DNA of 64,000 nt, from assembly GCA_039680605.1 (NCBI GenBank), contig JBDKTA010000068.1, positions 1-64,000 of the forward strand. The letters run 5' to 3'. A program made the position numbers and the translations under genes. Each line of letters opens with the position of its first letter. The first letter of the stretch is position 1. This document shows positions 26,205 to 60,983 of the stretch, piece after piece. Under the pieces are notes generated by a model. That model saw nothing but the letters and a program-made list of their open reading frames with translations. It was not told the origin of the DNA and searched no databases. Source of the DNA: Planctomycetaceae bacterium (GTDB lineage: Bacteria; Planctomycetota; Phycisphaerae; SM23-33).

Positions 26205-26554
26205 GGGGGCGAATTGGATTCGACCGGACGAGTCTGGGTGTCGGTGGCGTGCCGAGGTTCTCAGGAGGCCTCGTAAAACACCTGGGACTATTTTATTTGC
26301 CAAGCCTCAACTGGCAATGGCAGCTTAATTAAGCTGTCCGCTCTGGGTCTCGCGCCCGCGAGGGGCTCAGGGTGAAAACTAGCGGGCTTACCAAACGAGA
26401 GTGGTCTGGTTACTCGCGAGGGACATAAGGCCAGGCTGGCTGTCGGATGACCGTGTCGATTCGGGCCCCGGCAGCGACATTAAATAACCGACTACGCACG
26501 TAGAGGCCGCCATCAAGCCGTCACGGGACGCGGGTTCGATCCCCGCCGCCTCCA
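26205..26554 (+). ncRNA. ssrA: tmRNA (SsrA)
   Basis: A 350-base tmRNA that rescues stalled ribosomes. The 5' end GGGGGCGAATTGGATTCGAC is characteristic, and GGGGGCG pairs with CGCCTCC at the 3' end next to a T-arm (CGGGTTCGATCCCCG). The acceptor end is TCCATTG, so CCA is probably added after transcription. The tag reading frame is best placed at 26299-26328 and gives AKPQLAMAA followed by TAA; the resume codon GCC is inferred. A strong terminator follows directly. Confidence 0.95.
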
Positions 26555-35761: not shown

Positions 35762-35930
35762 GGTGACTCTCCTTGTATTTGACCGGGCCCAGCCTACCGC
35801 GCCCCCCAAGCGGCCGTCAAGCGGGGGCGAGCCGGATTGCAGGTTTGCGACTTTCGAGGAAGAGCCTGTTGCGTGTCTCTTAGATCGCCGCGATCCTGCT
35901 ACGGTACGTCTTCCAGACATGGGCATCCAC

Positions 35931-36033
35931 TGCCGGGGGTGGGAGTCGAACCTGCCTGCCGGCAGGCAGGCCCACACGGGGCGTAAGCCCCTCGAGATTT
36001 TGAACCTGCCCGCCGTGGCGGGCCTGCCCGCGC
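35931..36033 (-). pseudogene. Partial tRNA-Leu copy split by two palindromic insertions
   Basis: Bases 35931-35950 and 35971-36004 repeat the 3' 62 bases of the intact tRNA-Leu at 36297-36358. A 20-base palindrome (35951-35970) interrupts the T-arm, and a second insertion of about 20 bases containing CCCGCC and GGCGGG sits near 36005-36026. It cannot fold as a tRNA. Confidence 0.8.
35951..35970. repeat. 20-base perfect palindrome, copy 1
   Basis: CCTGCCTGCCGGCAGGCAGG sits exactly between GTCGAA and CCCACACGGG, which are contiguous in the intact tRNA-Leu. An identical copy is at 60951-60970. No target duplication is seen. Confidence 0.85.
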
Positions 36034-36034
36034 A

Positions 36035-36292
36035 TCATTCACAGGATGGGTAATTGTTTCGAATCCATTCTCGGCCAGAACCAGTCTTCAGCTCCCGCTC
36101 TCGTTGCCGTGCTTGGATCCGGCTTGGGAAGACCTCGCTGTGGATCACGACAAACGGCCCTCTGCCTCTTGTGGATAAATTGTAGCCTCTATTGTGCTGA
36201 AGAAGCCTGCGCTCAAGATTATCCGTTAGCCCGATATAGAGCTGTCCGTTCTTGATGCTTCTCAAGACATATGTTGTCCAGACCTGCTTCAC
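36035..36292 (-). CDS. Small GIY-YIG nuclease-family protein
   Basis: An 85-residue protein with TTYVLRSIKNGQLYIGLTDN at the N-terminus: the Y-V-L and Y-I-G elements form the GIY-YIG motif, and a conserved Arg (RRLLQHNRG) and Glu (RERELKTGSGREW) follow. This size matches YhbQ/UvrC-like single-domain members. The start is probably GTG at 36292, just after the tRNA end; a longer frame only translates the tRNA and is rejected. There is no ribosome site. The gene lies precisely between the intact tRNA-Leu and its partial copy. Confidence 0.8.
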   Translation of the reverse strand: MKQVWTTYVLRSIKNGQLYIGLTDNLERRLLQHNRGYNLSTRGRGPFVVIHSEVFPSRIQARQRERELKTGSGREWIRNNYPSCE

Positions 36293-36296
36293 CCAC

Positions 36297-36382
36297 TGCC
36301 GGGGGTGGGAGTCGAACCCACACGGGGCGTAAGCCCCTCGGGATTTTGAATCCCGCGCGTCTGCCAGTTCCGCCACCTCGGC
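36297..36382 (-). tRNA. tRNA-Leu (anticodon CAA)
   Basis: An 86-base class II tRNA. The anticodon arm is CGGGA TTCAAAA TCCCG, the long variable arm is GGGGCTTACGCCCC and the T-arm is GTGGGTTCGACTCCCAC. The acceptor stem GCCGAGG/CCCCGGC has one A-C mismatch. The 3' end is GGCA followed by GTG, so CCA is not encoded. Confidence 0.93.
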
Positions 36383-48856: not shown

Positions 48857-48969
48857 CGTGCATCATCGAGAGTGCGCGAGGGTTCTGGCCCGACGACCGC
48901 ACGGCAACCTGTCGCGGACGATGTTGGAAAGCGATAAGGTGCCGCAGCCATCCCGCAAGGGGCCGATGT
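48857..48969 (+). promoter_or_regulatory. SAM riboswitch (SAM-I clan)
   Basis: Leader RNA conserved core: ATCGAGAG, GAGGGTTCTGGCCCGACGA, CGGCAACC and AAGGTGCC in the SAM-I order, closed by GCATC with GATGT. A GC hairpin follows (GACCCGCTCCGCAGCGGGT). Binding of S-adenosylmethionine would favour the terminator at 49018-49041. It lies directly before metY. Confidence 0.85.
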
Positions 48970-49017
48970 GACCCGCTCCGCAGCGGGTAAACAAGCCGAA
49001 ACTTTGCGATGTTGGCG

Positions 49018-60914: not shown

Positions 60915-60983
60915 CCACGGGCGAGACGCCCGTGGAACTCATGGGCAAGACCTGCCTGCCGGCAGGCAGGTGCCCATGCTACT
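60915..60983. repeat. Hairpin-cluster repeat, copy 2
   Basis: CACGGGCGAGACGCCCGTG, an AACTC linker and CATGGGCAAGA/TGCCCATGCTACT. The last hairpin loop is split by the 20-base palindrome at 60951-60970. The CTA (60979-60981) is the scpB stop codon, as in copy 1. Confidence 0.85.
60951..60970. repeat. 20-base perfect palindrome, copy 2
   Basis: CCTGCCTGCCGGCAGGCAGG identical to copy 1 at 35951-35970, inserted between the A and T of CATGGGCAAGA|TGCCCATG. Confidence 0.9.

Follow-up and report, generated by a model that had tools for sequence, protein, structure and literature searches.

A GIY-YIG nuclease gene between an intact and a partial tRNA-Leu: a probable member of a family of tRNA-linked elements

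In the contig JBDKTA010000068.1 of the Planctomycetaceae bacterium assembly GCA_039680605.1, a nuclease gene coding for only 85 residues lies between an intact tRNA-Leu gene and a partial copy of that tRNA. This raises the question whether such a unit is a mobile element in its own right, and if so, how it is tied to its tRNA. I analysed positions 1 to 64,000 of the contig, hereafter the window, together with related loci from other genomes. The initial annotation of this DNA, made from the letters alone, had described a small element that inserted at a tRNA and rebuilt its 3' end, with the nuclease as its only gene.

The tRNA-Leu locus in the window

The tRNA-Leu(CAA) gene is present as a single copy in the genome, and its 3' end is separated from the nuclease gene by 4 nt, in good agreement with the five or so bases first estimated. 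The score of the nuclease (Table 1) lies well above the curated PF01541 cut-off of 22.6 bits, its GIY-YIG domain comprises residues 5-73, and in the alignment it has the Y, Y-G, R, H and E columns that are invariant in 14 tRNA-linked relatives. The start codon is a presumed one; the frame stays open upstream into the tRNA (113 codons). As had been proposed, the nuclease gene is the sole gene between the tRNA repeats, and the element as a whole is only about 350 bp long. A group I intron of the tRNA with its homing enzyme is ruled out, as no Rfam intron match is found anywhere in the window and the tRNA is uninterrupted. Elsewhere, the window holds a tmRNA with the tag AKPQLAMAA and a SAM riboswitch (26205-26554 and 48860-48972, respectively).

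Table 1. Positions in the window of the tRNA-Leu, the nuclease gene and the parts of the partial tRNA copy.
Feature	Position	Strand	Basis or remark
Intact tRNA-Leu(CAA)	36297-36382	-	ARAGORN and Rfam RF00005
GIY-YIG nuclease gene, one domain, 85 aa, GTG start	36035-36292	-	PF01541, 58.6 bits
Partial tRNA-Leu copy, D-arm to 3' end, interrupted by two palindromes	35931-36036	-	identity blocks of 97% and 100%
Copy block equal to tRNA nt 33-66	35971-36004		97% identity, E 2e-13 (3.2-kb locus)
Copy block equal to tRNA nt 65-86	35931-35952		100% identity, E 1e-8 (3.2-kb locus)
Palindrome in the T-arm of the copy, CCTGCCTGCCGGCAGGCAGG	35951-35970	.	dispersed genomic repeat
Palindrome in place of the 5' side of the copy's anticodon arm, CCTGCCCGCCGTGGCGGGCCTG	about 36005-36026	.	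corresponds in position to hairpins at other loci
Weak extension of the repeat resembling the nuclease gene start, GTGGATGCCCATGTCTGGA vs GTGGGTGAAGCAGGTCTGGA	35906-35930	-	sequence comparison

Chance can be excluded as the origin of the tRNA copy, because of the E-values of its two blocks and its recurrence at other loci. Initially taken for a 62-base repeat split by two palindromes, it does contain both palindromes, but it extends from the D-arm as far as the 3' end, and its length is not exactly 62 bases; beyond the second palindrome follow a few further D-arm bases, GATGCGCGGG in the copy and GACGCGCGGG in the intact tRNA. Past the tRNA, only 4 nt of the repeat align by BLAST. The palindrome in the T-arm occurs at 37 genomic sites when up to 2 mismatches are allowed, and the one in the anticodon arm has one copy within the 209 kb of this genome searched. 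Both occupy the same arms as the hairpins of other loci, but they are not of the TCC...GGA type described below. The T-arm palindrome is also seen at 60951-60970 of the window, and a wider context is common to several of its copies.

Recurrence and anatomy of tRNA-linked nuclease loci

PF01541 was searched in the same GTDB family, order and class, after which the loci were fetched and scanned for tRNAs. This search, made without regard to tRNAs, gave 141 distinct loci with a single GIY-YIG domain; 35 of them have a tRNA on the same strand within 300 bp upstream and none has one on the opposite strand (0.30 expected, p about 5e-61), while about three quarters have no tRNA link. Scanning genome contigs with one protein as query gave no matches, and a six-row alignment of closer sequences did find loci; with 80 named loci from this genome scan and 30 from the phylum, the set grew to 252. 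In this set a tRNA is located upstream in 71 and downstream in 34 loci on the same strand, and on the opposite strand in two, at a linkage rate that is biased for the later-added loci, which came from tRNA-linked queries.

The layout is observed in at least 8 phyla and with about 15 tRNA isotypes. Its named hosts include the Planctomycetota, Acidobacteriota, Chloroflexota, Verrucomicrobiota, Myxococcota, Nitrospirota, Bacteroidota, Omnitrophota, Poribacteria and several Patescibacteria lineages. The initial annotation had suggested looking in other genomes for GIY-YIG genes next to tRNAs with tRNA repeats, and such loci are indeed found by the dozen, in many phyla. Relatives on phages and plasmids show less than 60% identity; one of the four inspected lies behind tRNA genes, on an Acidiphilium plasmid, and a search of that locus for partial tRNA copies found none. 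In the genome of the window, a second small GIY-YIG gene (L001, G000:C48, 1248-1761 of the locus) is located 178 bp behind a tRNA-Asn; partial tRNA copies were looked for here too, and none were found.

Two arrangements are distinguished. In layout A, the intact tRNA precedes the nuclease gene, which is followed by a copy of the 3' part of the tRNA; copies of the 5' part may stand ahead of the intact tRNA. In layout B, a 5'-part copy is followed by the nuclease gene and then the intact tRNA. Extra partial copies are present in about 60 of 105 tRNA-linked nuclease loci (a few loci counted twice) and at 1 of 73 control tRNAs, consisting of the 48 other tRNAs of the window's genome and 25 tRNA-Leu(CAA) genes of relatives. 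Most 5' copies extend from nt 1 into the T-loop. Most 3' copies begin in the D-loop and reach the 3' end of the tRNA, and the copies point the same way as tRNA and nuclease gene.

In 37 copies at 27 loci, counted among copies with sequence on either side of the hairpin, a short hairpin substitutes the anticodon arm; some copies have a second one in the T- or D-loop. The form TCC...GGA is found at 22 of these 27 loci, against a baseline of 3.5% TCC starts among the perfect hairpins of all DNA fetched (copies included). Of the hairpin classes in the fetched loci, the one with TCC ends shows the highest enrichment (101 vs 31.5, the copies themselves included), and a loose TCC...GGA pattern counted genome-wide is enriched in some genomes only.

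The longest tandem array, at L313, lies before the tRNA and comprises 11 copies at a spacing of 107 bp, and at L347 the tandem units of 223 bp include the promoter region and the 5' part of the tRNA. The downstream repeat continues for at least 12 nt past the tRNA in 12 of 33 layout-A loci, in several of them as far as duplicated first codons of the nuclease gene, and some loci consist of tandem repeats of a tRNA with a truncated nuclease gene.

The single control with a copy is a tRNA-Pro(GGG) of the window's own genome (L205, G000:C25), which has, a short distance behind the intact gene, a 3' copy with the hairpin GTCGCTGCGGCGAC and no nuclease gene. It is likely the scar of a lost element, judging from this hairpin, which nearly matches the hairpins at L037 and L173, two nuclease loci linked to tRNA-Pro(GGG). 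In genome G527 (L382-L392), more than 10 scattered 3' parts of tRNA-Val(GAC) start at nt 29-34 and extend some 30 nt beyond the tRNA; flanks are common to several of them, and no nuclease gene is nearby. These repeats possibly represent another tRNA-anchored repeat or attachment-site family.

Isotype clades and an element-free site

The tRNA isotype is not distributed randomly over the nuclease tree. Mapped on a tree of 99 tRNA-linked nucleases, whose 86 columns limit its resolution, the isotype requires at least 41 changes vs 67.7 after shuffling, and none of 200 shuffles gave a value as low. One clade of 13 nucleases from four phyla is linked to tRNA-Asn throughout, and another, also with 13 members, to tRNA-Pro. 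Pseudo-tRNAs of the tRNA-Pro group have arms that are 98.6% identical to the tRNA of their own locus vs 89.4% to those of other loci, the own tRNA being the closest in 9 of 9 cases, and the hairpin TCCCTTAGGGA is identical across four species. As the arms fit their own tRNA best and this hairpin is common to four species, the arms track the host and the hairpin tracks the element.

The nuclease is thus found in clades tied to a site, and it is either present or absent at a conserved site. The initial annotation had pointed to element-free strains as a check, and in genome G095 the orthologous tRNA-Asn site lacks both the nuclease gene and the copies, while the complete genome G090 of the same genus has both; the left flank is syntenic over 3 kb at 84% identity, and the right flank gives no alignment. 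The intact tRNA-Asn of G090 is identical to that of its relatives G597 and G598, which, in the one case tested, does not fit a cleave-and-rescue scheme with a recoded rescue tRNA. At a tRNA-Val where G538 carries an intact nuclease gene, G589 has lost most of that gene and retains no more than its 3' end. A decayed start of a GIY-YIG gene is also seen behind a solitary tRNA-Asn in genome G054 (L406).

Interpretation and comparison with known systems

The explanation that I favour, with a probability of about 0.6, is a widespread family of minimal mobile elements in which a free-standing GIY-YIG gene is locked to a tRNA and to duplicated pieces of it, and which spreads in a homing-like manner; the locus in the window is best read as one of its members. 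Weighing against this explanation are the single domain of the nuclease, related to UPF0213 and Slx1, the right flank of the empty site that gives no alignment, the three quarters or so of the PF01541 loci that have no tRNA link, the 86 columns of the tree and the window's palindromes, which differ from the TCC...GGA type. The notion of a small element with one gene at a tRNA is upheld by dozens of loci and by the element-free site within one genus. However, insertion with rebuilding of the 3' end is too narrow a description, because in many loci 5'-part copies are present in addition or instead, and exchanged anticodon arms and, in some copies, duplicated nuclease starts occur as well. The pattern looks as if the tRNA had been duplicated on either side of the nuclease gene, and not like the attL and attR of an integrase. 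That no named family fits, as was first noted, is well supported by the same layout at dozens of loci; the family is apparently undescribed, and in the open-access papers searched I came across no account of GIY-YIG genes that are linked to tRNAs and accompanied by copies of this kind.

The activity and target of the nuclease, the transfer of the element and the role of the hairpin copies could then be as follows. The nuclease would break DNA in or near the tRNA gene, and repair from a copy that bears the element, or tandem duplication of the broken segment, would lead to gain or amplification of the nuclease gene and to duplication of the tRNA. One tRNA copy would be kept functional by selection, because the gene is essential, and the others would persist as pseudo-tRNAs whose anticodon arm has given way to a hairpin. 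Homology for recombination would come from the tRNA arms, while the hairpin and the nuclease gene would form the travelling core. More tentatively, and with some doubt, these loci might constitute a new class of selfish elements in most bacterial phyla, annotated only as 'GIY-YIG nuclease family protein', in which a one-domain and possibly structure-specific nuclease swaps the anticodon arm for a hairpin and maintains itself next to the one functional copy; the host would be addicted, because loss or disruption of that copy would be harmful.

Alternatively, GIY-YIG proteins may mobilise or disperse short hairpins, as RAYT transposases do with REP sequences, the hairpins that flank the nuclease entering the D-, anticodon and T-loops of spare tRNA copies that tolerate them. 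TCC...GGA hairpins do occur in unrelated tRNA copies of several phyla, in the anticodon arm as well as in T- and D-loops, and both the enrichment of TCC-ended hairpins (101 vs 31.5, copies included) and the 37 genomic sites of the window's T-arm palindrome point in this direction. However, the hairpin sequences differ among clades and the genome-wide signal derives from a loose pattern in some genomes only, and I consider this explanation unlikely. It is quite unlikely that the nuclease gene is resident and serves the cell, for example in the repair of branched DNA, and only happens to lie behind tRNAs while the copies arise by ordinary tandem duplication and decay. Its closest solved structures are UPF0213 and the branched-DNA nuclease Slx1, and the L347 units with promoter and tRNA 5' part resemble segmental duplications; even so, clades specific to one isotype cross phyla, copies are almost absent at control tRNAs, and it is the anticodon arm that is replaced, by a recurring hairpin.

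The pseudo-tRNAs could also be functional RNAs, decoys or regulators of a nuclease that acts on tRNA, with the unit serving as a defence or toxin-antitoxin module. Such a role would agree with the tRNA arms that are retained around a closed hairpin, with arrays of up to 11 near-identical copies (L313) and with the common orientation of copies, tRNA and nuclease gene, but it is improbable: with most 5' copies ending in the T-loop and most 3' copies beginning in the D-loop, one strand of the acceptor stem is missing, the copy number ranges from 0 to 11, and GIY-YIG enzymes are DNA nucleases in the known cases. The remnant of an integrase-type genomic island, in which the partial tRNA would be attR and the nuclease gene what is left of the cargo, is very improbable. 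A 3' tRNA copy downstream of the tRNA is typical of such islands. However, no integrase is found, the nuclease is the sole gene between the copies here and elsewhere, and 5' copies, hairpin anticodon arms and duplicated nuclease starts are unlike att sites.

If the homing-like family holds, it would give a function and a target to very common tiny nucleases that annotation leaves unexplained, and it would perhaps be the smallest class of elements to exploit essential tRNA genes. It would account for the tandem pseudo-tRNAs in many draft genomes and could serve as a compact system to study the site preference of a one-domain nuclease and the duplication of tRNA genes. In addition, open frames running from a tRNA into these nuclease genes would give rise to false N-termini in databases.

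By sequence profile, the solved structures nearest to the nuclease are UPF0213 (1zg2, 1ywl), followed by SLX1, and a weak AlphaFold model built without an alignment (pLDDT 60) has UPF0213 and Slx1 as its best matches. UPF0213/YhbQ-type GIY-YIG proteins and Slx1 are not known as tRNA-linked mobile elements, and the link to tRNA duplication is new here. The homing-endonuclease models of NCBIfam and PHROGs match the window nuclease weakly. Classical homing enzymes carry a DNA-binding module; a separate domain of this kind (I-TevI-type) was looked for in the 85-aa protein and is absent, so that the nuclease may work like a free-standing homing endonuclease without being a member of the classical homing families. 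REP/RAYT systems likewise combine a small gene with short palindromes, but the gene here is a GIY-YIG and not a RAYT (Y1 transposase) gene, and REP/RAYT have no tRNA anchoring like that seen here. Integrase islands and satellites at tRNA genes share the intact tRNA on one side and the partial tRNA on the other, and differ in having an integrase; the element of about 350 bp has none, with copies on either side and a hairpin for the anticodon arm.

The closest parallel in function is SegB of phages T4 and T6, also a free-standing GIY-YIG gene adjoining tRNA genes. SegB is a phage enzyme near a tRNA cluster, and the passages of the SegB paper considered here (PMC13096335) describe neither hairpin pseudo-tRNAs nor isotype-locked families across bacterial phyla. 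According to the same passages, SegB cuts inside tRNA genes and, in T6, amplifies a segment with tRNA and truncated segB (PMC13096335). It is from this precedent that I favour a homing-like element, and the tandem repeats of a tRNA with a truncated nuclease gene resemble the T6 amplification as it is described there.
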